Below are positions 14,121 through 25,919 of a stretch of 64,000 bases of DNA, in pieces (positions within the stretch are counted from its first letter, which is position 1; each line of letters starts with the position of its first letter). The stretch lies in contig JAIQFY010000004.1 in assembly GCA_020072965.1 (NCBI GenBank), forward strand, positions 62,001-126,000, read 5' to 3'. The position numbers and the translations under genes were made by a program. The DNA comes from Terriglobia bacterium. Its GTDB lineage: Bacteria; Acidobacteriota; Terriglobia; JAIQFV01. The notes beneath the pieces are model-generated. The model worked only from the letters and a program-made list of their open reading frames with translations, was not told the origin of the DNA and did no database searches.

Positions 14121-14545
14121 ATCACACTGGATCGTCCTTTCCTTTGGCCTTTTTCACGAATCTGTCTTTCCAAGGATTTTCTGCAAAACTTTTTCTCTTG
14201 CATGCGCATGAAGGAACCCCCCAAGGCAGCGGGGTCAGGAGATGGTTCATCCGTCGCTGTCGCCCTTCACAGTTTCAAAGGACATCTCACCGCTGTGAAA
14301 AGTCAGCCTTCGTTTTCCACCAAACCCGGAAGTGCTTGCGGATCCAGGTGGTTGCCCCAATTCGTGCAGCGATCTCACCCCGCCTGTTCCCCACTCCCTT
14401 TGAGATTGTGGCCCAAGGGGGCCTGTCCCTGCCCAACCCCAAAGAACCGCCCGAAGCAGGACTTTGAGACATAGCGCCCGCCCCCGAATTAAATCAAAGA
14501 TACCCAGCCATTGGCGGGTGAGCGGGAGAGGGGAAGGGGTTTTTT
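14121..14545. other. intergenic region, no gene seen
   Basis: About 425 bases between the tRNA and the arsenic operon promoter. Frames are open on the plus strand but their translations show no recognisable domain, no good ribosome binding site and no conserved pattern. Nothing further can be supported. Confidence 0.4.
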
Positions 14546-14589
14546 TTGACAGGGTCTATAAAATCTGATATCTGTATATCCGTATATAT
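14546..14589 (+). promoter_or_regulatory. arsR promoter/operator region
   Basis: TTGACA (14546-14551) follows a T-run and is 17 bp upstream of a weak TATCTG (14569-14574). Directly downstream lies a TATA-type repeated tract (GATATCTGTATATCCGTATATA, 14566-14587 in outline) with two copies of TATnnGTATA. Such AT-rich repeated or dyad tracts between -10 and the start are typical ArsR operators, so autorepression relieved by As(III) is likely. Confidence 0.5.
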
Positions 14590-14599
14590 GGAGGAATCA

Positions 14600-14986
14600 A
14601 TGAAAGAAACGGTCAAGACCTTCAAGGCGCTTTCAGATGAGACCCGCCTGCGGATCCTTCACCTCCTGATTGAGGCCGGGGAGATTTGCGTGTGCGATAT
14701 GGAAACAGTGCTGGGGTGTCCACAGGCCAAGGTGTCGCGGCACTTGACAATCCTCAAGAACGCGGGCCTCGTGGACGACCGCCGGGAAGGACTCTGGGTT
14801 TTGTACTCCTTGGTCAAACCGGCGGACTCCACCCATGCCGCCGTTCTCAAAATGCTTCGGGAGACCGGCGGCGGCGAGCTTTTTTCTCTCGATAAGAAAA
14901 AACTGCTGCAAGCGATCCAACAGGGACGGTGCAAGACATTCGGCGTGATCAAACCGGAGAAGATACCCCAATCTATGGCGCGATAG
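14600..14986 (+). CDS. arsR: arsenite-responsive repressor ArsR
   Basis: 128 residues from ATG 14600, preceded by GGAGG (14590-14594). Winged helix-turn-helix: FKALSDETRLRILHLL, then EICVCDMETVLG and QAKVSRHLTILKNAGLV. The CVCD motif is the three-coordinate As(III)/Sb(III) site of the classical ArsR subgroup, placed at the start of the DNA-reading helices. It is the first gene of the arsenic cluster; Acr3 follows after 325 bases. A frame extends upstream to another ATG at 14588, which would overlap the ribosome binding site and is less likely. Confidence 0.93.
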   Translation: MKETVKTFKALSDETRLRILHLLIEAGEICVCDMETVLGCPQAKVSRHLTILKNAGLVDDRREGLWVLYSLVKPADSTHAAVLKMLRETGGGELFSLDKKKLLQAIQQGRCKTFGVIKPEKIPQSMAR

Positions 14987-15311
14987 AATTTCAGGGAGGG
15001 CCCGCGAAGAACGAATAACAAAATAGTGACTTAATGGTGGAATATGTACCAAGTATGGGAAGAAAACTCCCCATTAGGAGCTTATCAACATAATTTGTGC
15101 CGGGAAGGTCAAGAAAATTTATCATTAGGAGGCCAGGAATACAGGAAGTTGAAAACCTTCAATCGGAAGAGAACCTGATGATCCCGCACCGGCGGGCTTT
15201 CCATCGACAACCCCCGGTGTCCTGGTTTCCTAATAGAATCTGGTTTTGGTTCCGGCTCAGGAAGCCAAGAATGCAAGGAGTCGAAAATCCCGGGTCTTAA
15301 CAAAATGCCTT
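14987..15311. repeat. arsR-acr3 spacer with imperfect direct repeats
   Basis: No gene seen. Two related segments, around 15129-15158 (GGAGGCCAGGAATACAGGAA...) and 15258-15288 (GGAAGCCAAGAATGCAAGGA...), match at most positions and look like copies of a short dispersed repeat. They interrupt what is otherwise a compact ars operon. Confidence 0.45.
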
Positions 15312-16394
<1,083 letters not shown>

Positions 16395-16403
16395 GGCAGG
16401 TCA

Positions 16404-16817
16404 ATGCGGAAAGAGAGAATCTTGTTCCTCTGTACCGGTAATTCCGCGCGGAGCCAGATGGCGGAAGGCTTGCTCAGGCACATGGCGGGTGATCGCTTTG
16501 AAGTCTTCAGCGCTGGGACGCACCCCGCGGGATTAAACCCCCACGCGGTTGCGGCCATGCACGAGATTGGAATCGACATTTCCGGCCACCGTTCGAAGCT
16601 TGTGGACGAACTTGCGGGACAATCATTCGATTGTGTATTCACGGTCTGCGACAACGCCAGGGAAGCCTGTCCTTTCTTTCCCGGCGGGGGCAGACGCATC
16701 CACCATAGCTTTGAAGATCCGGCGGCTGCGACTTCGGAGCGGCAATCGGAAGTGTTCCAACGAGTGCGTGATGAGATCGGCACACGCCTGCGGGAGTTCC
16801 TTCGTGACGGCGGGTAA
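16404..16817 (+). CDS. arsC: arsenate reductase, thioredoxin-coupled (LMW-phosphatase fold)
   Basis: 137 residues. It reduces arsenate to arsenite for export by Acr3. The N-terminal P-loop is CTGNSARS (CX5R, nucleophile Cys near residue 10). The redox pair lies in TVCDNAREACPFFPG, the two cysteines of the S. aureus pI258 ArsC type that use thioredoxin. Length and order match. It is 9 bases after acr3 and probably in the same transcript. Confidence 0.94.
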   Translation: MRKERILFLCTGNSARSQMAEGLLRHMAGDRFEVFSAGTHPAGLNPHAVAAMHEIGIDISGHRSKLVDELAGQSFDCVFTVCDNAREACPFFPGGGRRIHHSFEDPAAATSERQSEVFQRVRDEIGTRLREFLRDGG

Positions 16818-16907
16818 GCAGTCGTACGACTGACCGGCCGTGATGCTTGATGCTCCACGGGGTTTCCGGGATGCCGCCATCCGCATGAGGTTGCGGTAAG
16901 GAGACAA

Positions 16908-17366
16908 ATGTCAGAGTACCTTCAAACAACGGTAGATAAGTTCACATTCCGAGTGGCGACAGATCGCCTTTACACTCCCCATGGCGTCTGGGTCCTTTCC
17001 ATGCCGCCTCAAGGATCCTCTCGCGTTCGAATCGGGGTTACGGATTTCCTTCAGCAGCACAGTGGTGATGTGGCCTTTGTGAATGTCAAGCCGACGGGGA
17101 CCCAGCTCAAAGCGGGGGAGGAGTTCGCGGACATGGAGACGATGAAGATCACGCTGGGACTTCCTTCGCCCATCACCGGCACCCTCGTCGAGATCAATCC
17201 GTCCCTCGAACTCACACCCGAGGTCGTCAACCAGGATCCCTATGGCGAGGGTTGGCTGGCGGTGATCGAGGGCATGGATTGGGAATCGGACCGCGCCAAA
17301 TTGCTCGAGGCGCCGGCCTATTTTGCCGTCGTGCAGTCGCAAGCGGAGCAGGAGCTGAAATCATGA
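16908..17366 (+). CDS. GcvH-like lipoyl carrier protein in the arsenic locus
   Basis: 152 residues with the GcvH fold: HGVWVLSMPPQGSSRVRIGVTDF in outline, GDVAFVNVKPTGTQLKAGEEF, then the lipoylation loop ETMKITLGLPSPITGTLVEIN with Lys80 as the expected lipoyl lysine, and VNQDPYGEGWLAVIE. AAGGAG precedes the ATG. No P-, T- or L-protein genes are nearby, so a glycine cleavage role is not supported by context. The stop overlaps the next start (ATGA), so it is coupled to the DGC genes. Similar lipoate-binding proteins act as sulfur carriers in sHdr systems; whether this one carries sulfur or reacts with arsenicals is inference. Confidence 0.85.
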   Translation: MSEYLQTTVDKFTFRVATDRLYTPHGVWVLSMPPQGSSRVRIGVTDFLQQHSGDVAFVNVKPTGTQLKAGEEFADMETMKITLGLPSPITGTLVEINPSLELTPEVVNQDPYGEGWLAVIEGMDWESDRAKLLEAPAYFAVVQSQAEQELKS

Positions 17367-17797
17367 ATGATGATAAACGAACTGTGGTCGTCGTCCCGTG
17401 CAGCGGCATCGGCAAGCCCTTGGGAAGCGTGACCCGCGAGGCGGCATATGAATTGTGCGATCACCTGCGTCCGGGCGACACGCGGTTGGTGGCGCTCTCG
17501 AAGCTGGTTCTCGGCGACGAACCAGCCCTCGAGCGAGTGCGCACCCATCCGGCCGTCACGATCGATGGCTGCAAGCAGATGTGCGCATCGACGCTGGTAA
17601 AACACAGCGGCGGCACGGTGGCGCAGGAGGTCGCGGTGTTTGACGCCTTCCGAAACCACAAAGGTCTCAAGCCGGAAGGGATTGCCGAACTGAACGCGGA
17701 AGGCAGGGAGCTTGCGCGAATTATTGCTGAAGAGATCGCGGCGCAGGTCGATGCAATCATCCAGACCGGGAGCAAAGATGGAGGGCAACATGCCTAA
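17363..17797 (+). CDS. DGC-domain putative zinc-binding protein, copy 1
   Basis: 144 residues of the DGC (putative zinc-binding, PF08859-type) family. The N-terminal VVVVPCSGIGKPLGSVTREAAY gives the first Cys (CSG), ELCDHLRPGD a second, and TIDGCKQMCAS supplies the DGC motif plus another Cys. No signal peptide. The start overlaps the lipoyl gene stop by 4 bases and the end overlaps the next gene by 8 bases, so it is translationally coupled on both sides. Biochemical function of this family is not established; a cysteine-based metal or redox site is inferred. Confidence 0.8.
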   Translation: MNDDKRTVVVVPCSGIGKPLGSVTREAAYELCDHLRPGDTRLVALSKLVLGDEPALERVRTHPAVTIDGCKQMCASTLVKHSGGTVAQEVAVFDAFRNHKGLKPEGIAELNAEGRELARIIAEEIAAQVDAIIQTGSKDGGQHA

Positions 17798-18506
17798 GCT
17801 GCCTGAGCGAAAAGTGGGGATTGTCGCCTGTTCCGGTGAAGAACTGGCCGAGGGCACGGTCACGCGGTTGGCAGCGCTGAAGGTGCTGCACGAGTTGCGT
17901 CCGGGGAAGACGGTGACGATTTGTCTGCCGTTGTTTCTCGCGGGCGGCGAGGGAGACCGGGCCTTCGCACGGTTTCATCCCACCATCACCCTTGACGGCT
18001 GTGACCTTCGCTGCGCGGCTCGAGGAACTGAGATGTATTCGGGCAAGCCCACGGCAAGCATCGTGGTCAGCGACCTGGTCGCGAAACACCGGTTGGGCAA
18101 GGTTGAAGGACGCCGCCAACTGAATGCATCCGGTAGAGAAGCGGTTGAAGTGGCCGCCCAGCGACTCACGGAACTGGTCGATGAGATTCTTGGTCCCCCT
18201 GTACTCGTGGTCATCAATAAAGCAATGGCTGCGGCGGGGCCCCAACCAACCCAGTCTGTCGGATGGTCCTGCGGCGCCGGCATCCCAGCCAAAAAAATCC
18301 GTATCGATGGCAAAACGGTGGAATTGCTGGCGCTGCCACAGATCTTCGGGCAGTTTCGTGAGTTGGGACGCCGCCCCGAAACCGCCGCAGATGACCTGCT
18401 AGAAGCGGTGAAAATCTACAACATCGTACCACCTGAACAGGAGAAGGCTTACCGCGAAGCGATGGTCCGCGAGTACGCCGCATTCTGTCAGGAGGTGACG
18501 CCATGA
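17790..18506 (+). CDS. DGC-domain protein, copy 2, with C-terminal extension
   Basis: 238 residues from ATG 17790, preceded by GGAGGG (17780-17785). An in-frame ATG at 17778 is the alternative. The N-terminal about 165 residues parallel copy 1: GIVACSGEELAEGTVTRLAA, ELRPGK, TLDGCDLRCAA. The extra C-terminal segment (SVGWSCGAG, KKIRIDGKTVELLALPQIF, then IVPPEQEKAYREAMVREY) is absent from copy 1 and looks like a small fused domain of unknown role. It overlaps the OsmC gene by ATGA. The two copies probably act together. Confidence 0.78.
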   Translation: MPKLPERKVGIVACSGEELAEGTVTRLAALKVLHELRPGKTVTICLPLFLAGGEGDRAFARFHPTITLDGCDLRCAARGTEMYSGKPTASIVVSDLVAKHRLGKVEGRRQLNASGREAVEVAAQRLTELVDEILGPPVLVVINKAMAAAGPQPTQSVGWSCGAGIPAKKIRIDGKTVELLALPQIFGQFRELGRRPETAADDLLEAVKIYNIVPPEQEKAYREAMVREYAAFCQEVTP

Positions 18507-18976
18507 GCCGGATGGCGACTTATCACACCATGGTTCAATGGACGGGCGAGCATCGGGGCCACCTGGCCATGGGAAACGGTCCGGAAATGAGTTTCTCTGC
18601 CCCTCCGGACGCGCAAGGCCATGCCGGAGTGTTGACGCCGGAAGATGCCTTTGTCGCCGCGGCAAATACCTGCGTGATGTTGATGTTCATCTGGGCGGCG
18701 GAGCGCTTCCATCTCAACCTGCTGTCTTACGAGTGTCGCACCGAAGGCACCAAGCTGATAGAACTCGACCGCACCGAGATTTTCACGCGACTGTGTTTCC
18801 GGCCCGTAATTCGGGTGGCGTGTGATCCCGGCCAAAGGGAACTCATTGAGGCCAGAACACGGCGCGCGTTGCAGGCGGCACAGAAATATAGCCTGGTCGC
18901 CAATTCGGTCAAGTCAGAACTCGTTATGGATCCGGAAATCATGGTCACCGAGAACGTCGCAGCCGAATCCCATTGA
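18503..18976 (+). CDS. OsmC-family protein lacking the second redox cysteine
   Basis: 157 residues. OsmC/Ohr fold: the PEDAFVAAANTCVMLMF helix carries the first conserved Cys. The region where OsmC and Ohr have the partner Cys reads SLVANSVKSELV, with Ser-Val instead. Another Cys is present in YECRTEG. OsmC proteins usually reduce organic peroxides with a Cys pair; loss of the partner suggests a changed reaction or a carrier role. It starts at the stop of the second DGC gene (ATGA) and closes the coupled four-gene set. Confidence 0.85.
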   Translation: MSRMATYHTMVQWTGEHRGHLAMGNGPEMSFSAPPDAQGHAGVLTPEDAFVAAANTCVMLMFIWAAERFHLNLLSYECRTEGTKLIELDRTEIFTRLCFRPVIRVACDPGQRELIEARTRRALQAAQKYSLVANSVKSELVMDPEIMVTENVAAESH

Positions 18977-19007
18977 CCCGCCGCAGAAGTGAACGAGGGG
19001 AAGTCCT

Positions 19008-19129
19008 ATGGAGAAACTCGATGTGCCGCTCAGGACACGTGCCCTTCCGGGACGGCATTTGGAGGATGGAGACTCTGCATGAAAGAGAAAATCGAAATCA
19101 TGGACTGAGTGTGCTCCTGCGCACGGTAG
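19008..19129 (+). other. two tiny overlapping frames with good ribosome binding sites, one interrupted by UGA
   Basis: ATG 19008, preceded by GAGGGG, encodes 24 residues ending at TGA 19080-19082. This overlaps ATG 19079, which opens MKEKIEIMD, then TGA (19106-19108), then VCSCAR and TAG (19127-19129). If the TGA were read as Sec the peptide would be MKEKIEIMD-U-VCSCAR. A 6-bp hairpin (CTGGAC 19131-19136 with GTCCAG 19147-19152) lies downstream. This may be a decayed thiol-protein gene or chance; I do not assign a product. Confidence 0.2.
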
Positions 19130-19176
19130 GCTGGACTCTGTCCTATGTCCAGGTGTGACCCCTTTTAAGTAAGAGT

Positions 19177-20004
19177 ATGAGCGTTCCTATTCCCATTCAA
19201 CATATCCGTGATCATTACGATCGCCTTTCCACCTATTACCGGACGTTGTGGGGGGTGCACCTCCATCATGGTTACTGGGAAGACAACGAGCCCCAGTCCG
19301 TAGCCCAGGTGAACCTCGTCAGGAAATTGGCAGAGCTGGCGGAGCTATGCCCTTCGATGCATATTCTCGACGTGGGGTGCGGGCTGGGAGGGTCATCGCT
19401 GTGGTTGGCCGAGAACCTGGAAGCCACGGTCGTCGGGCTGACCCTGAGCGAGGTGCAGGCGCGGATGGCGCACACGGAGGCGATGAGGTCGGGGCTCGAA
19501 GGACGGGTCTCTTTTCATTTGGGTGATGCCCGGCATTTGCCCTTTGCTGCGGGTCGCTTCGACGTCGTCTGGATCATCGAGTGCAGCGAACACGTGGAAG
19601 ACAAGCAATCATTTCTCGCCGGCTGTAGCCGGGTTTTGAGGATAGGCGGAAAGCTGGCGATCTGTGCATGGCTGAAGGCGGACGGGCTTTCTCGAGAGGA
19701 GGAAGAGGCATTCATCGAACCGGTCTGCGGCGGATTCTTGTGTCCTTCTTTGGAGACCATGAACAATTACCGGCGCTGGATGGAAGAGAGTGGCTTCACG
19801 GTTCTTCACGCGCTCGACATCACCCCCCGGGTTGAAAAGACCTGGACTGTGTGTACAAAGATCGTGCAACGGCCGGAGGTGAAGCTTCTGCTTCAGCTTG
19901 GAGATGAAAGCATCCTCAATTTTGTGAACGCTTTTGAAGCTATCCGGAAGGCCTACGCCCAGCGAAAGATGCTGTACGGGATGATGGTAGCTGAGAAACG
20001 ATAA
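19177..20004 (+). CDS. SAM-dependent methyltransferase, tocopherol/sterol-type class I
   Basis: 275 residues. N-terminal IRDHYDRLSTYYRTLWGVHLHHGYW in outline resembles the gamma-tocopherol/sarcosine-type methyltransferases. Motif I is ILDVGCGLGGSSLWLAE, motif II region ARHLPFAAGRFDVVWIIECSEHVED, motif III VLRIGGKLAICAW. It does not have the conserved cysteine arrangement expected of the arsenite methyltransferase ArsM as far as I can see, so arsenic methylation is not claimed. It lies about 200 bases after the OsmC gene, same strand; the substrate is unknown. Confidence 0.82.
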   Translation: MSVPIPIQHIRDHYDRLSTYYRTLWGVHLHHGYWEDNEPQSVAQVNLVRKLAELAELCPSMHILDVGCGLGGSSLWLAENLEATVVGLTLSEVQARMAHTEAMRSGLEGRVSFHLGDARHLPFAAGRFDVVWIIECSEHVEDKQSFLAGCSRVLRIGGKLAICAWLKADGLSREEEEAFIEPVCGGFLCPSLETMNNYRRWMEESGFTVLHALDITPRVEKTWTVCTKIVQRPEVKLLLQLGDESILNFVNAFEAIRKAYAQRKMLYGMMVAEKR

Positions 20005-20072: not shown

Positions 20073-20582
20073 TCAATGATGAGGGGGCCCCGATTTTACC
20101 CACTCGACACTTTCGTTGTAATCAAGCACCGTCCCGCCATGCACGACCTGGAACTCCTTTGCCTGAGCGCGGGTTTCGAAGGCTAGCAAGCTCGGGACAC
20201 AGCGGTCCCACGCCAGGTGCACGGGTTGGTGATCGGTCCAGTCCCTTTTTTGGGGGACGGCACAGTGCTCCAGATCCGAATTATAGACATACAAGGCTTC
20301 TTCCGCGGGAAGGGTTTTTGCGGTCTCGTAATCTGTCGCGCGGGCTGAAACGACTTGAGATTGCTTTTCCAGCCGCTCGAGAATTCCGCACTTGGCACAG
20401 CAGAGCGTCTCTTGCCCCCCATTCTTCATCGCCAGTGTAAAGACCCATCCGGGGTGAAGCTCTCTTTTACAGGCGGTGCAGGCTGAGGCAGCAACTTCCC
20501 GCCTTTCGAGGAAGAACACCGTCGAAGCCACGGCGATCATTAACATCATCACTACGGCAGGAATGATCTTCTTTGCTGACAT
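20073..20582 (-). CDS. NosL-like copper-binding accessory protein
   Basis: 169 residues. A single N-terminal membrane or signal segment (about residues 6-24) is followed by CTACKRELHPG and later LCCAKCGILERL, giving two CxxC-type pairs. The C-terminal half has AWDRCVPSLLAFETRAQAKEFQVVHGG, typical of NosL-like domains in which a segment of the form AF.....A..F...HGG follows the Cys. NosL proteins deliver Cu(I) in the periplasm, classically to nitrous oxide reductase; no nos genes are in the window. It is transcribed divergently from the copper storage protein gene, which supports a copper role. Confidence 0.7.
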   Translation of the reverse strand: MSAKKIIPAVVMMLMIAVASTVFFLERREVAASACTACKRELHPGWVFTLAMKNGGQETLCCAKCGILERLEKQSQVVSARATDYETAKTLPAEEALYVYNSDLEHCAVPQKRDWTDHQPVHLAWDRCVPSLLAFETRAQAKEFQVVHGGTVLDYNESVEWVKSGPPHH

Positions 20583-20874: not shown

Positions 20875-21346
20875 ATGGAGCGACGGGATCTCGTGATGGG
20901 GGGGTGTGGTTTCAGCTACGGCCACGTTTGCGAACCTGGGACTGGCCGCCAATCAGGGCGAGCAGCACAAACACGATGAGCAAGAACACGAGGAGCACAT
21001 GCATCACGCCAGCGGCAAGTACAAGGCGCTGGTGAATAGCTCGGCCGACTGTGTGCATATCGGCGAGGAATGTCTGAACCACTGCCTCACGATGCTCTCC
21101 ACTGGCGACAAGGAGCTGGGCGAATGCTCCAAGTCGGTCAATCAATTGGTGGCGACCTGTGATGCCCTGATGAGACTGGCGGCTCAGGAGTCGGTGTACA
21201 CTCCGAAAATGGCGGCGCTGGCGGGACAGGTCTGCAAGGATTGTGAGGCCGAGTGCCGGAAGCACGAAAAGAAACATGCGCTGTGCAAGGCGTGCGCTGA
21301 TTCCTGTGCCGCCTGTTACAAGGAATGTCAAAAGGTGTCGGCATAG
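20875..21346 (+). pseudogene. Csp1-type copper storage protein, Tat leader frameshifted in a G7 run
   Basis: The body (from about 20906) is a four-helix-bundle cysteine-rich protein (DUF326 type) with 13 cysteines, e.g. CVHIGEECLNHC, QVCKDCEAEC and CKACADSCAACYKEC. That is the number in Methylosinus Csp1, which stores Cu(I). A His-rich linker (HKHDEQEHEEHMHH) precedes it. The start ATG 20875 has AAGGGAGGA upstream and encodes MERRDLVMGG, a Tat-type leader, but in another frame. Removing one G from the seven-G run at 20898-20904 joins it to VVSATATFANLG, restoring a 156-residue Tat-exported protein. It is a sequencing error, mutation or phase-variable tract; these cannot be told apart here. 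Confidence 0.8.
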
Positions 21347-21851: not shown

Positions 21852-24800
21852 ATGATAAAAAGATTCCGTCGCCCCGGCTGTCTTTTATTTGTCATTCTCG
21901 TCAGCCTCGTCCCCGTTTCCCTCGTCGCACAACATCCCATTGCCAAGCGCTACCGCGAACAGAGCACCTGGATCGGACGCGCCGAACCCGGGATGCAAAT
22001 GAAGTCGATGATGTTCGCGTTCCAACTGCAGAACCAGCAGGATTTGGAACGCCTGCTCCAGGAGCAGCAGGATCCGCAGTCACCCAATTATCATCGCTGG
22101 TTGACGCCCGAAGAATTTGGTAGCCGGTTTGGTGTCCCCCAGGCGCAGTACCAACGCGCGGTACAGTGGCTCGAGGAGAACGGGTTTGCAGTCAAGATGC
22201 ATCTCGGCAACCGGCTGAGGATCTATTTCGATGGAGTCACCGAGAACGTGGAGCGCGCCTTCCGCACCCACATCCAGCTTTATGATTACAAGGGAAAGAC
22301 CTATTTCTCCAACGACCTTGACCCCCAGATTCCATTGGAATTCCAGGACCGTGGACAGGGGATCTATGGCCTGGACGATTTTCCCAAGGAACAACCGCTC
22401 TATAAGAACGGTAATACTTTTGGATTGGCGCCCACCGACACCCACGTGGCCTACAATCTGCAGCCCCTCTTTCAGAGCGGCATTGACGGGACCGGACAGA
22501 GCATCGCCATCGTGGCGCGGACGAACTTCAATATCTCCGATGTGCAATCCTTCCGGAGCACCTTTGGACTGCCTCCGAATGATCCCGTGAAAATCCTCGT
22601 TGGAAGCGATCCGGGAGACCTTGGCGGCGGGGAAGAAACGGAGGTGCTGCTGGATACTGAATGGTCGGGCGCGATTGCCAGGAGTGCCACCATCCAGGTG
22701 GTGATCGCCCCCAATAAGAATATTCAAGCCTCCATGGATTACATCCTCAACAACCTGTTCACCACCCGCGTGATGAGTATCAGTTTTGGTCTGGGGGAAA
22801 GCTCCTTCTCGACCAGCGGCCAGGTGAACTTTATCAGCAGCTTTTTTTCCCAGGCGGTCGCCCAGGGACAGACCGCCCTGGTTGCCTCAGGCGACGAAGG
22901 CGCACTACAGGGTGTCAGTAATGGTACTAGCACGGGTCTCGACATCAACTACCTTTGTGCTTCTCCGTATGTGGTTTGCGTGGGCGGAACGACCCTCGTT
23001 CCGCAGCTCGATAATACAGGCATTAATGTGATTGGGTATAACAGCGAGACTGTTTGGACTGGAAGCGGGGGAGGAAGTTCCAGGTTCATTGATAAGCCGT
23101 CGTATCAGGTTGGGCCGGGCGTGCCCATCACGGATGGGAAGCGGGATGTCCCCGACGTGGCTGCCACAGCGAATCCGCAAGGGGGGGCTTTCATCTTTGT
23201 GCGGGGAAAACTCAGCACGGGAACGATCGGAGGCACGAGTCTGAGCACTCCAATCTGGGCAGGCATCTTTGCATTGGTCAATCAAGCCAGCTTTTCGAAT
23301 TCGCCCGGCGGTGTGGGATGGGCCAACCCCCGATTGTACCAGATGGGCCGGATACAGTACGCGCAGAGCGGTCCGCAGTTTTTCAATGATGTCACGGTGG
23401 GAAACAACAACAACGGCAACGTGACCGGGTTTAATGCCGGCCCCGGGTACGATCAAGTCACGGGATGGGGGTCATTCAACGGCGACGTGTTTGTCAGAAA
23501 TTTCAGTCAGGTCCCCGCTCCCCCGACTGTCTCGATGGATAGCAACCCTCAGACCACGGGTACTATTCCCCCCGCGAACTCTGCCACGGAGTGCACCCTG
23601 AATTCCACTCAATACACTATCAATGTTCCCGCAGGGGCAGTACAACTGGTGGTGACGCTGGATGGACCTCCCGGCGGTGACGTGGATCTTTATGTCCGCA
23701 AGGCGCTCCAAGTCGGGAATGCCGGGTCGTTCAACCCCTTTGTTTCAGACTACCGCTCCGAAGGAAGCACGGCGCACGAGGCGGTCTATGTGGGCCCCAA
23801 TTCACTCAATCCACTGACACCGGGCACCTATTACATTGGCGTGACCAACTGCGGGTCAACTCCAGGTGCATTTACACTTTCGGCCAACGTGATCGCCGGC
23901 TCCGCCGCAACCAAGGTGGAGGAACTCTCTGTCGACAACGGCATTGTCGAATTCCCGTTTCCCCAGAGCACGGCGAATGGAACCATCGTTGTGAACCGGC
24001 TCCGGCCTTTGCGTTATCCTTCCAAGCTGACTAAGATCCGGATTTATTCAACGCAGTGGAGCACCAGCCAAAATCCAGTTGGACAAACCGTTCGTCTAAT
24101 TGCGTTTGCCGACCCATCGCGTTCGGGAAATCCCCCGTCTCCAACACCTCAATTCCTGGTGGATCAACAAGGCACGATTTCCGGCTCGAATGGGTTCATG
24201 GAATTCACCGTGCCCAATCCACCCACGATTACGAGTGGTGACTGGTATGTAGGTTTCCAACATCCCTCGACAGGGACTGCTGTTCTGGCGTCCATCAATA
24301 CCAGTGGGCTCCCCCAGCAGGCGAGCTTCATCTCGGCAGATGGGGGAGGGACTTTTGCCGGGCCATATATCCTGCCCACAACCCAGGAATCTGCGAACTT
24401 CATGATCCGCGCGGTGGTCGAGAGCCATGTCGACACCTTCAGCACGGTCAATCTGCAGATTCCGCCCATCGGCGCGAATACCGTGTCCACCAACACGGCC
24501 AATACGATTGTCCAGGTGGGATACGCCACGGCAAGCGCGACGAGCGGGGGCGTGCCTTTCGGCACCGCGGTCTTCAGCCTTTCCCAGGGCGGGACGGTGG
24601 TGACGGAAGCGGGTGTACCGGCTTCTGGGACGACCACTCATGCCCGGATATTCATCGATTACCGGACGGCGGTTCCGGCGAAGGGCAATGCCGTGGAGGC
24701 GGGAACAATTGGCATTGACACAGGATTTGCAATGGTCAATCGCGGCCCGGTCACTGCGAACATCACATACACCCTGAAGGATTCCACAGGGGCAATTACG

Positions 24801-25919
24801 CTCGCCAGCGGGAGTGGCACCCTCGCTCCAAATGCTCACGATGCCCGGTTCATCGATCAACTCAACCAGGTGGCTCCGGGCTTTAACCTGCCGGGGAATT
24901 TTTCTACGACCACGCAGTTTGGGACGCTCGACATTTTGAGCAGTCAACCCGTTGCAGTGGTGGCATTGCGGCTGACAAACAACCAGCGGGGCGACACACT
25001 GATTACCACCACCCCGATTGCCGACCTGGACGCGCCGTTGTCGAACAACCCCGTGAGCTTCCCGCAAGTGGTCGATGGCGGTGGATTCAAGACCATCCTG
25101 ATTTTGGTGAACACCTCAGCCGTGGCCGAGACCGGCAGTGTGAAATTCTTAACCGACACAGGGATACCGCTGAACGTCCATTTAACCGACGGCTTCATCG
25201 GCTCTACCGACTCCTACCTCATTCCGGCCGGAGGGTTTAAGGTGATGGAAACAGACGGATCCCCGTCGAGCCAGAATGTGGGGTGGGCGCTGGTGACGCC
25301 CAGTGCAACGAACACGCCGGTGGGAGCCGGGGTCTTCAGCTTCACACAGGGCGGTACGCTGGTCACCGAGTCAGGCATTCCCGCCGCCATCCCCACCACG
25401 CATGCGCGGATCTATGTGGATAAAACGATCAGTGCGGCCGGCACGCACAACACGGGACTGGCCATGGCCAACCCCTCCCTAACGCAGAGCCTGAACGTCA
25501 CTATCAGTGCTTTCCAAATGGATGGAGTCACACCTGTGGGCAGTAGCGCAGGGCCCGTCTCTCTTAACGTGCTCGGGCACGCGGCGAAGTTTGCCGACCA
25601 GTTCATCAATGGTCTTCCCAACGGATTCACAGGGGTGCTGGACATCAGCGCGGCGTCTCCTTTTGTGGCGCTCACTCTGCGCTCGCTCAACAATACTCGT
25701 CTCCCGAGCAGTGATTTTCTTCTCACGACGTTCCCCATTGCCGACCTCAATCAGGTTTCAGCGAACCCGTTAATCTTCCCCCAGATTGCGGATAGCGGTG
25801 GGTATCAGACGCAGATCATTCTTCTCAACACCAGCAATTCAAGCTCAAACGTCACGGTGAATTATTTTGATGGGAATGGCCAGCCGCTCGCGTTGAAGAG
25901 CGGGAGGGAAGATAAGTAG
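21852..25919 (+). CDS. secreted S53 (sedolisin/kumamolisin) peptidase with PPC domain and repeated C-terminal modules
   Basis: 1355 residues. Signal peptide about 1-27. The Pro-kumamolisin activation domain (about 30-185) includes PQSPNYHRWLTPEEFGSRFG. The S53 catalytic domain (about 200-555) has the Glu/Asp pair in EETEVLLDTEW, oxyanion Asp in ASGDEGA, Ser in GGTSLSTPIWAG, and the calcium site in FNDVT..GYDQVTGWGS. A PPC domain (GDVDLYVRKA..GTYYIGVTNC) follows. From about residue 870 to the end come repeats with VFSLSQGGTVVTEAG, AHDARFIDQ, TNNQRGD, PIADL and GGFKT, shared with the protein at 11362-13776. It is an acid-type protease probably released to the medium. The last repeat ends early (ALKSGREDK). 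Confidence 0.93.
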   Translation: MIKRFRRPGCLLFVILVSLVPVSLVAQHPIAKRYREQSTWIGRAEPGMQMKSMMFAFQLQNQQDLERLLQEQQDPQSPNYHRWLTPEEFGSRFGVPQAQYQRAVQWLEENGFAVKMHLGNRLRIYFDGVTENVERAFRTHIQLYDYKGKTYFSNDLDPQIPLEFQDRGQGIYGLDDFPKEQPLYKNGNTFGLAPTDTHVAYNLQPLFQSGIDGTGQSIAIVARTNFNISDVQSFRSTFGLPPNDPVKILVGSDPGDLGGGEETEVLLDTEWSGAIARSATIQVVIAPNKNIQASMDYILNNLFTTRVMSISFGLGESSFSTSGQVNFISSFFSQAVAQGQTALVASGDEGALQGVSNGTSTGLDINYLCASPYVVCVGGTTLVPQLDNTGINVIGYNSETVWTGSGGGSSRFIDKPSYQVGPGVPITDGKRDVPDVAATANPQGGAFIFVRGKLSTGTIGGTSLSTPIWAGIFALVNQASFSNSPGGVGWANPRLYQMGRIQYAQSGPQFFNDVTVGNNNNGNVTGFNAGPGYDQVTGWGSFNGDVFVRNFSQVPAPPTVSMDSNPQTTGTIPPANSATECTLNSTQYTINVPAGAVQLVVTLDGPPGGDVDLYVRKALQVGNAGSFNPFVSDYRSEGSTAHEAVYVGPNSLNPLTPGTYYIGVTNCGSTPGAFTLSANVIAGSAATKVEELSVDNGIVEFPFPQSTANGTIVVNRLRPLRYPSKLTKIRIYSTQWSTSQNPVGQTVRLIAFADPSRSGNPPSPTPQFLVDQQGTISGSNGFMEFTVPNPPTITSGDWYVGFQHPSTGTAVLASINTSGLPQQASFISADGGGTFAGPYILPTTQESANFMIRAVVESHVDTFSTVNLQIPPIGANTVSTNTANTIVQVGYATASATSGGVPFGTAVFSLSQGGTVVTEAGVPASGTTTHARIFIDYRTAVPAKGNAVEAGTIGIDTGFAMVNRGPVTANITYTLKDSTGAITLASGSGTLAPNAHDARFIDQLNQVAPGFNLPGNFSTTTQFGTLDILSSQPVAVVALRLTNNQRGDTLITTTPIADLDAPLSNNPVSFPQVVDGGGFKTILILVNTSAVAETGSVKFLTDTGIPLNVHLTDGFIGSTDSYLIPAGGFKVMETDGSPSSQNVGWALVTPSATNTPVGAGVFSFTQGGTLVTESGIPAAIPTTHARIYVDKTISAAGTHNTGLAMANPSLTQSLNVTISAFQMDGVTPVGSSAGPVSLNVLGHAAKFADQFINGLPNGFTGVLDISAASPFVALTLRSLNNTRLPSSDFLLTTFPIADLNQVSANPLIFPQIADSGGYQTQIILLNTSNSSSNVTVNYFDGNGQPLALKSGREDK

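Follow-up and report, generated by a model that had tools for sequence, protein, structure and literature searches.

A four-gene cassette encoding a lipoyl carrier, two DGC proteins and an OsmC-like protein is attached to arsenic-resistance loci in Acidobacteriota and other phyla

Introduction

Arsenic owes much of its lethality to capture of the lipoate dithiol, and it is well established that dihydrolipoyl thiols bind trivalent arsenic, As(III), strongly. Thiol-based handling of arsenic is also a feature of arsenic-resistance (ars) operons and their accessory genes, including ArsR-Acr3-ArsC, ArsEFG and the ArsD chaperone. To our knowledge, ars genes do not include one for a lipoyl carrier, a DGC protein or an OsmC-like protein, and none was found as such in the open-licence literature searched. 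A cassette of exactly these types, consisting of genes for a GcvH-like lipoyl carrier (GcvHL), two DGC-domain proteins (DGC1 and DGC2) and an OsmC-like protein, occupies positions 16908-18976 (+) of a 64,000-nucleotide stretch of contig JAIQFY010000004.1 from a Terriglobia bacterium (GCA_020072965.1; 5.9 Mb in 108 contigs). The whole of this stretch is referred to below as the window. The cassette shares with the known ars operons their loci, regulators and transporters and, in the reading developed here, their thiol-based treatment of arsenic. An earlier note on this DNA, made from the letters alone, had stated that it knew of no described system with this composition, and the open-licence literature searched likewise yielded no description of the lipoyl-DGC-DGC-OsmC combination.

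The individual proteins have described relatives, which are summarized here from the available parts of three papers. LbpA, of the sHdr sulfur oxidation system, is like GcvHL a GcvH-like single lipoyl-domain protein outside glycine cleavage; it serves sulfur oxidation and carries two conserved cysteines, one N-terminal and one C-terminal, except in some archaeal members (PMC6067878). The Ohr peroxidases use Arg19, Glu51 and a reactive Cys61, which forms a disulfide to Cys125, and their catalysis finishes with reduction by a lipoylated protein; an R19A variant retains residual activity only (PMC5962072). AnvM (PA3880) of Pseudomonas aeruginosa is a single, stand-alone and regulator-like DGC protein, for which the available part of the source describes no lipoyl or OsmC partner (PMC6650552). 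Its Cys44 is the most oxidation-sensitive cysteine found in that organism, and the protein contained no significant zinc, copper or iron after its inclusion bodies were dissolved (PMC6650552).

Conservation of the cassette

The four genes of the window cassette overlap end to start on the plus strand by 4, 8 and 4 bases and follow ArsR, Acr3 and ArsC genes on the same strand, beginning 90 bases behind the end of the ArsC gene at 16817, as the earlier note had described. Profile surveys with an alignment of DGC2 (E <= 1e-10) found the cassette in 15 of 396 genomes of its own phylum, in 9 of 101 relatives, and in 4 of 282 and 3 of 301 genomes of the phyla of metagenome-assembled genomes (MAGs) labelled Myxococcota and Chloroflexi, respectively. 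In the phylum of a MAG labelled Euryarchaeota, one of 243 genomes has the whole cassette and three more were matched by the C-terminal domain of DGC2 only. With DGC2 as query, a scan limited to a single genome from each species identified 22 loci. The comparison set used below comprises 43 loci, mostly from Acidobacteriota together with MAGs bearing these three other labels; six duplicates (L067, L069, L101-L104) and L108, the second contig end from a cassette genome that was already in the set, were left out before counting. Five of the 43 cassettes are cut by contig ends (L009, L023, L024, L068, L111), and the archaeal cassette (L021) lies on a 9.4 kb contig of a MAG and may be mis-binned.

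Co-occurrence of the four genes is the rule in this set, with all four matched at 37 of the 43 loci and the order GcvHL-DGC1-DGC2-OsmC kept at 36 of these 37. The close packing is kept as well. When start codons are picked nearest to the start of the window protein, the stop-to-start gap is -4 between GcvHL and DGC1 in 19 of 20 loci measured, -8 between DGC1 and DGC2 in 16 of 20, and -4 or -1 between DGC2 and the OsmC-like gene in 11 and 8 of 21, respectively. Pairwise distances among the four cassette proteins correlate at r 0.62-0.77 with one another and at 0.37-0.45 with those of the neighbouring Acr3, indicating that the four genes move as one block. Among the 101 relatives, PF08859, the DGC family, occurs in eight genomes, and all 17 of its matches lie inside cassettes. 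Conservation across phyla excludes chance clustering, and together these data support the view that the cassette is one functional unit.

The DGC family as a whole is not specific to arsenic. Searches of plasmids by tblastn with DGC2, DGC1 and the OsmC-like protein gave no match, and an archaeal DGC protein used as query matched 24 plasmid records. The four of these records inspected have other neighbours, such as a flavin reductase and a Crp/Fnr regulator, and no ars genes, suggesting that the association with arsenic is a property of the cassette alone.

Linkage to arsenic-resistance genes

Attachment of the cassette to arsenic loci goes far beyond chance. Neighbours up to 6 kb from each of the 43 cassettes were counted by tblastn at E 1e-5, every family being represented by a single query, a procedure that misses distant homologues; clustering of neighbouring open reading frames includes antisense artefacts, and the counts rest on tblastn instead. 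Representatives of the MTH895/ArsE, thioredoxin, DsbD-like, permease and radical SAM families were named from family scans, and those of ArsA, ArsD and ArsM by eye. By this measure ArsR is near 32 cassettes, MTH895/ArsE-family thioredoxin near 32, Acr3 near 28, ArsC near 18, an ArsM-like protein near 10, ArsA near three and ArsD near two, and DsbD-like proteins of two types are near seven cassettes each (up to 14 of 43). One or more genes of ars type (Acr3, ArsC, ArsA, ArsD, ArsM, ArsR or MTH895/ArsE) are found at 41 of the 43 loci, and at 30 when ArsR and MTH895 are not counted. The two loci with no ars-type gene are L009, where the contig starts within the cassette, and L017.

Counting by genome gives the same picture. 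A curated model finds Acr3 in 30 of the 32 cassette genomes, mostly as a single copy, and in 23 of the 32 it lies on the contig of the cassette within 6 kb, against a chance expectation of about 0.003 per genome if some 1.1 copies are assumed in 4.7 Mb. Two of the nine genomes without a linked Acr3 have no Acr3 at all, and in six of the other seven the contig carrying the cassette is shorter than 15 kb. Across the 101 relatives, Acr3 is present in 42, namely in all nine with the cassette compared with 33 of the 92 without it (Fisher p 0.0002). The partner transporters are of two distant kinds, with 58-97% or 31-34% identity to that of the window, and stand upstream or downstream of the cassette on either strand, suggesting that the linkage arose repeatedly. 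The earlier note had proposed counting both the conservation of the gene neighbourhood and the adjacency of ars genes, and had held that its interpretation would fall if the four genes seldom co-occurred or always accompanied a known pathway unrelated to thiol or metal chemistry; neither pattern was found.

On this evidence the module very probably serves the handling of arsenic or another metalloid in some form, and it is filed here among the ars accessory modules, as an undescribed one. The reading favoured for its function, to which we give a probability of roughly 40%, is that arsenic-resistance operons gain from the cassette an accessory module centred on a dedicated lipoylated carrier; in this module a dihydrolipoyl arm would hold trivalent arsenic and the thiols of the OsmC-like and DGC proteins would act as exchange partners. 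Among described systems, ArsEFG shows some overlap in gene content, as MTH895/ArsE-type thioredoxins and ArsG/DsbD-like proteins stand beside many cassettes but not beside that of the window, where tblastn matched no MTH895/ArsE, thioredoxin or DsbD-like gene within 6 kb.

Other genes recur near some cassettes. A radical SAM/SPASM protein is encoded near the cassette at nine of the 43 loci (L057, L059, L060, L061, L064, L066 and others) and directly 5' of GcvHL in several; it is related to the tungsten-oxidoreductase maturase TIGR04317, with scores of 293 and 237 bits against a cut-off of 380. Its presence within 6 kb allows for a maturation or modification system, in which a radical SAM enzyme would produce an organoarsenical or some unusual cofactor with the aid of the lipoyl carrier and the thiol proteins. 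This explanation is highly improbable, given that the gene is absent from 34 of the 43 loci, the window included, and that the matches stay under the cut-off of the model. Separately, a phosphonate-type binding protein and a histidine kinase adjoin two Chloroflexi cassettes, L110 (1642-7356) and L010 (2738-5104), and L110 also has a response regulator, NrfD and a ferredoxin subunit like DsrO/TtrB/ArrB. These neighbours presumably resemble arsenic-sensing and arsenic-respiration gene sets.

The lipoyl carrier

GcvHL (16908-17366, +; 152 residues) belongs to the GCV_H family (96 bits, cut-off 22.2) and shares with the H protein of glycine cleavage the lipoyl-site lysine, Lys80, which is invariant in 39 of 39 aligned rows. 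A lipA gene is present in the genome, and lipoylation of GcvHL at Lys80 is thus expected. Assignment as a glycine cleavage H protein or a remnant of one was rejected, since GcvHL scores under both NCBIfam gcvH cut-offs (TIGR00527, 89.1 against 115.85 bits; NF002270, 101.1 against 117 bits), other GcvH-like genes coexist with it in all six of six cassette genomes, and in a tree GcvHL forms one group separate from the ten other GcvH-like proteins of these six genomes, with modest support (83/73). Open reading frames resembling GcvT or GcvP by eye adjoin four of the coexisting genes (L137, L139, L141, L144), and no recurring gcvT/gcvP cluster was seen by eye beside the cassettes, where no profile search for these genes was made. 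A lead towards the selenoprotein "Tso" through the NCBIfam models TsoR and GcvH_rel_desulf was dropped, the matches being far below the cut-offs.

The employment of the GcvH-like LbpA in sulfur oxidation (PMC6067878) raises the alternative of a sulfur or persulfide module, in which the lipoyl arm would carry sulfane sulfur as proposed for LbpA, the DGC and OsmC-like proteins would be sulfurtransferase-like partners, and the linkage to ars genes would come about through thioarsenic chemistry or thiol stress. GcvHL nevertheless differs from LbpA in its gene partners and in its cysteines: the two that are conserved in LbpA are missing, the window protein has no cysteine at all, and 33 of the 39 GcvHL rows are cysteine-free, on which ground identity with LbpA was rejected. 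In addition, no rhodanese, TusA, DsrE or Hdr was recognized by eye in neighbour clusters of at least three loci, for which no profile search was made. A sulfur function is accordingly considered distinctly unlikely.

The OsmC-like protein

The product of the last gene (18503-18976, +; 157 residues; PF02566, 32.5 bits, cut-off 27.5) has the OsmC fold, as its AlphaFold model (mean pLDDT, the model's own confidence score, 78) matches Escherichia coli OsmC 1nye with Z 12.2 over 100 residues at 1.6 A, and the Ohr-dihydrolipoamide entries 6ebg and 6ebd are among the fold matches. Reduction of Ohr by lipoylated proteins links the first and last genes of the cassette. All 40 rows keep Glu47 and Cys57, whose ten-residue spacing is that of Glu51 and Cys61 in XfOhr. 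Other parts of the active site have changed. With places set by alignment to Ta0195 and to a paralogue of the same genome (L116), the resolving cysteine is replaced by Ser130 in all 37 rows that reach this place, near which Ta0195 and VCA0330 have a cysteine in the alignment, and the arginine of Ohr is replaced by His17, with histidine in 38 of 40 rows and arginine in two. A different cysteine, Cys78, is invariant in 40 of 40 rows. The paralogue has the usual second cysteine and the arginine and lacks Cys78. The earlier note had called this protein an OsmC-like protein missing its partner cysteine, which is only half right: the usual second cysteine is indeed a serine, but the invariant Cys78 supplies another. 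What these proteins share with the lipoyl-dependent Ohr/OsmC peroxidases is the fold, the reactive cysteine, the active-site glutamate and, by analogy, a lipoylated partner; what sets them apart is the serine, the usual histidine, Cys78 and a lipoyl carrier encoded in the same operon. To judge from its residues, the protein appears to be an OsmC that was adapted to different thiol chemistry and has retained its lipoyl partner.

Two alternatives start from these residues. An ordinary lipoyl-dependent hydroperoxidase with a private lipoyl donor could have its place in ars operons by virtue of the oxidative stress that arsenic provokes, and the OsmC fold, the retention of Cys57 and Glu47, and the extreme oxidation sensitivity of a cysteine in the DGC protein AnvM (PMC6650552) would all suit peroxide defence. 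Both the resolving cysteine and the arginine are however required in Ohr, according to the available part of the source (PMC5962072), and the cassette protein has lost the first in every row that reaches it and the second in nearly all rows. The same genome has at least four more members of the OsmC family that retain one or both of the usual cysteines (the comparison covers five of its seven other OsmC-family genes, without L113 and L114), and it is with ars genes that the cassette is linked. Peroxide defence is therefore very unlikely.

The second alternative, which is somewhat unlikely, is a lipoyl-dependent arsenical reductase. Cys57 would attack a pentavalent or oxidized substrate such as arsenate, methylarsenate, an aromatic arsenical or thioarsenate, Cys78 or the dihydrolipoyl arm of GcvHL would resolve the intermediate, an MTH895/ArsE-type thioredoxin would re-reduce the arm, and the DGC proteins would bind the trivalent product. 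The terminal reduction of Ohr by a lipoylated protein (PMC5962072), the conservation of Glu47 and Cys57, and the MTH895/ArsE-family and DsbD-like genes near 32 and up to 14 of the 43 cassettes, respectively, are consistent with such a scheme. It is less easily reconciled with the ArsC already present at 18 of the 43 loci, including the window, with the histidine at the arginine place, given the merely residual Ohr activity of R19A, and with the DGC proteins, which have no clear role in it.

The DGC proteins

Both DGC proteins are rich in conserved cysteines. In DGC1 (17363-17797, +; 144 residues; PF08859, 52.9 bits, cut-off 27), Cys13, Cys70 and Cys74 are invariant in 39 of 39 rows. In DGC2 (17790-18506, +; PF08859, 56.4 bits, same cut-off), Cys71 and Cys75 are found in 42 of 42 rows, and Cys14 and Cys45 in 41 of 42, with one gap. 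The cysteine at position 45 of DGC2 recurs in four further DGC proteins and is absent from DGC1; relatives of AnvM have one at this place, and our guess is that the highly reactive Cys44 of AnvM corresponds to it. Together with the invariant Lys80 of GcvHL and the two cysteines of the OsmC-like protein, these residues agree with the assignment of the cassette proteins to thiol types in the earlier note. The family label "putative zinc-binding protein" implies that zinc is bound; in AnvM, the studied member, no significant zinc was detected (PMC6650552). No NCBIfam model (June 2026) matches the DGC proteins, and no DGC relative was found in the PDB by sequence search.

The second DGC protein carries an added C-terminal domain (about residues 159-236), as had been noticed from the sequence. 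In the AlphaFold model of DGC2 the DGC domain is poor (mean pLDDT 57.9) and the C-terminal domain, from about residue 167 to 235, is confident; a Foldseek search with the model, including this domain, gave no significant match (best E 0.53). The domain also occurs as a stand-alone small protein with a CC motif in three archaeal genomes (L096, L097, L098). The proteins of L096 and L097, for which no NCBIfam or significant Pfam name was obtained, are encoded near ArsR genes, and that of L098 lies between an ArsP_1 permease gene (242 bits) and genes for an MTH895-like protein, recognized by eye, and a DGC protein.

Proposed role in arsenic handling

The favoured reading, an arsenic accessory module around a dedicated lipoylated carrier, would operate as follows. 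Entry of arsenite would cause ArsR to derepress the locus, and the ordinary lipoylation enzymes of the cell would lipoylate GcvHL at Lys80. In its reduced form the dihydrolipoyl arm is a 1,3-dithiol, which could then chelate trivalent arsenic or a trivalent organoarsenical and thereby spare the lipoyl domains of central metabolism. Cys57 and Cys78 of the OsmC-like protein might exchange thiols with the loaded arm, with the DGC proteins supplying further thiol sites, and Acr3 would then receive the arsenical, a part that ArsP- or ArsG-like permeases or ArsM would play in other loci. Thioredoxin, often the adjacent MTH895/ArsE-family protein, could re-reduce the lipoyl disulfide.

Several observations weigh against this reading. 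ArsR-Acr3-ArsC is normally sufficient by itself, and the cassette is missing from most of the relatives that have Acr3 (33 of 42). Ohr and OsmC proteins act mostly on peroxides, and the residues of the cassette protein fit a reductase role equally well. L017 (7528-9320), an intact-looking cassette with a short DGC2, has none of the tested ars genes in the roughly 7 kb that flank it on each side, and the loci share ancestry, so that the counts are not independent trials. The composition of the cassette also varies: the OsmC-like gene stands second in L066, the sole exception in order; L063 (8858-10843), a divergent cassette with three DGC genes lying 3' of ArsC, ArsR and MTH895-like genes, has no OsmC gene that could be found in it; the OsmC match of L110 is a 64-residue reading frame without the middle of the protein; and the C-terminal domain is missing from six of the 43 DGC2 homologues, which are 140-162 residues long. 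On balance, the interpretation of the earlier note, which had named sulfur transfer, persulfide handling or the processing of As(III) or other metalloids as possible roles, is partly supported.

A wider view, offered tentatively, is that the dithiol of a dedicated lipoyl carrier serves as a chemical handle for arsenic, that an OsmC-fold protein has been turned from a peroxidase into an arsenical thiol-exchanger (or reductase), that the DGC proteins provide arsenic-binding sites, and that the cassette has moved among bacteria and perhaps archaea. If so, protein-bound lipoate would have a further role beyond 2-oxoacid, glycine and sulfur metabolism, and dihydrolipoate, the classic target of arsenic poisoning, would become a device for detoxification; a mobile, highly conserved four-gene unit with its own lipoyl protein in arsenic operons suggests a weakness made into a tool. 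The DGC family, whose one studied member known to us is regulator-like, would be placed in a definite biochemical context, and arsenic biology would acquire an undescribed module of four small proteins. For annotation, the results give reason against the labels "glycine cleavage H", "zinc-binding" and "peroxiredoxin" for cassette genes.

Genes flanking the cassette in the window

The arsenic genes ahead of the window cassette are all on the plus strand. The ArsR/SmtB-family regulator (14600-14986; 128 residues) matches Pfam HTH_5 with 55.7 bits and NCBIfam NF033788 with 101 bits (cut-off 55), and contains an EICVCD stretch which we take to resemble the motif by which ArsR binds As(III). The Acr3 arsenite efflux transporter (15312-16394) scores 468 bits with TIGR00832 (cut-off 282.8; scan started at 15315). 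The following gene (16404-16817) encodes an ArsC-like arsenate reductase of the thioredoxin type, with 76 bits for LMWPc and 138 and 136 bits for NF010053 and TIGR02691, under the cut-offs of these two models. Searches found no terminator-like site on the plus strand between 16404 and 16908 and no promoter-like site on the plus strand within 14400-19300, results that are neutral as to induction by arsenite. Possible operators are a perfect 14-base palindrome, CAGTCGTACGACTG, at 16819-16832 directly 3' of the ArsC stop codon, and a second, AT-rich palindrome that precedes ArsR at 14579-14592.

Immediately 3' of the cassette lies a gene for an S-adenosylmethionine-dependent methyltransferase (19177-20004, +) with weak likeness to sarcosine/dimethylglycine methyltransferases (82 bits against 550), whose best-match label is found beside none of the other cassettes among the 43 loci. 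Close to the arsenic locus is a gene for a Csp1-family four-helix copper storage protein (20906-21346, +; TIGR04401, 149.7 bits, cut-off 100), of which no counterpart was found near the other 42 cassettes, and a NosL-like protein encoded near it (20073-20582, -; 20.6 bits, below the cut-off of 24) may form a small copper set with it. Further along, a 1355-residue protein (21852-25919, +), named by eye, resembles at its start a secreted S53 (kumamolisin-like) peptidase with a pro-domain.

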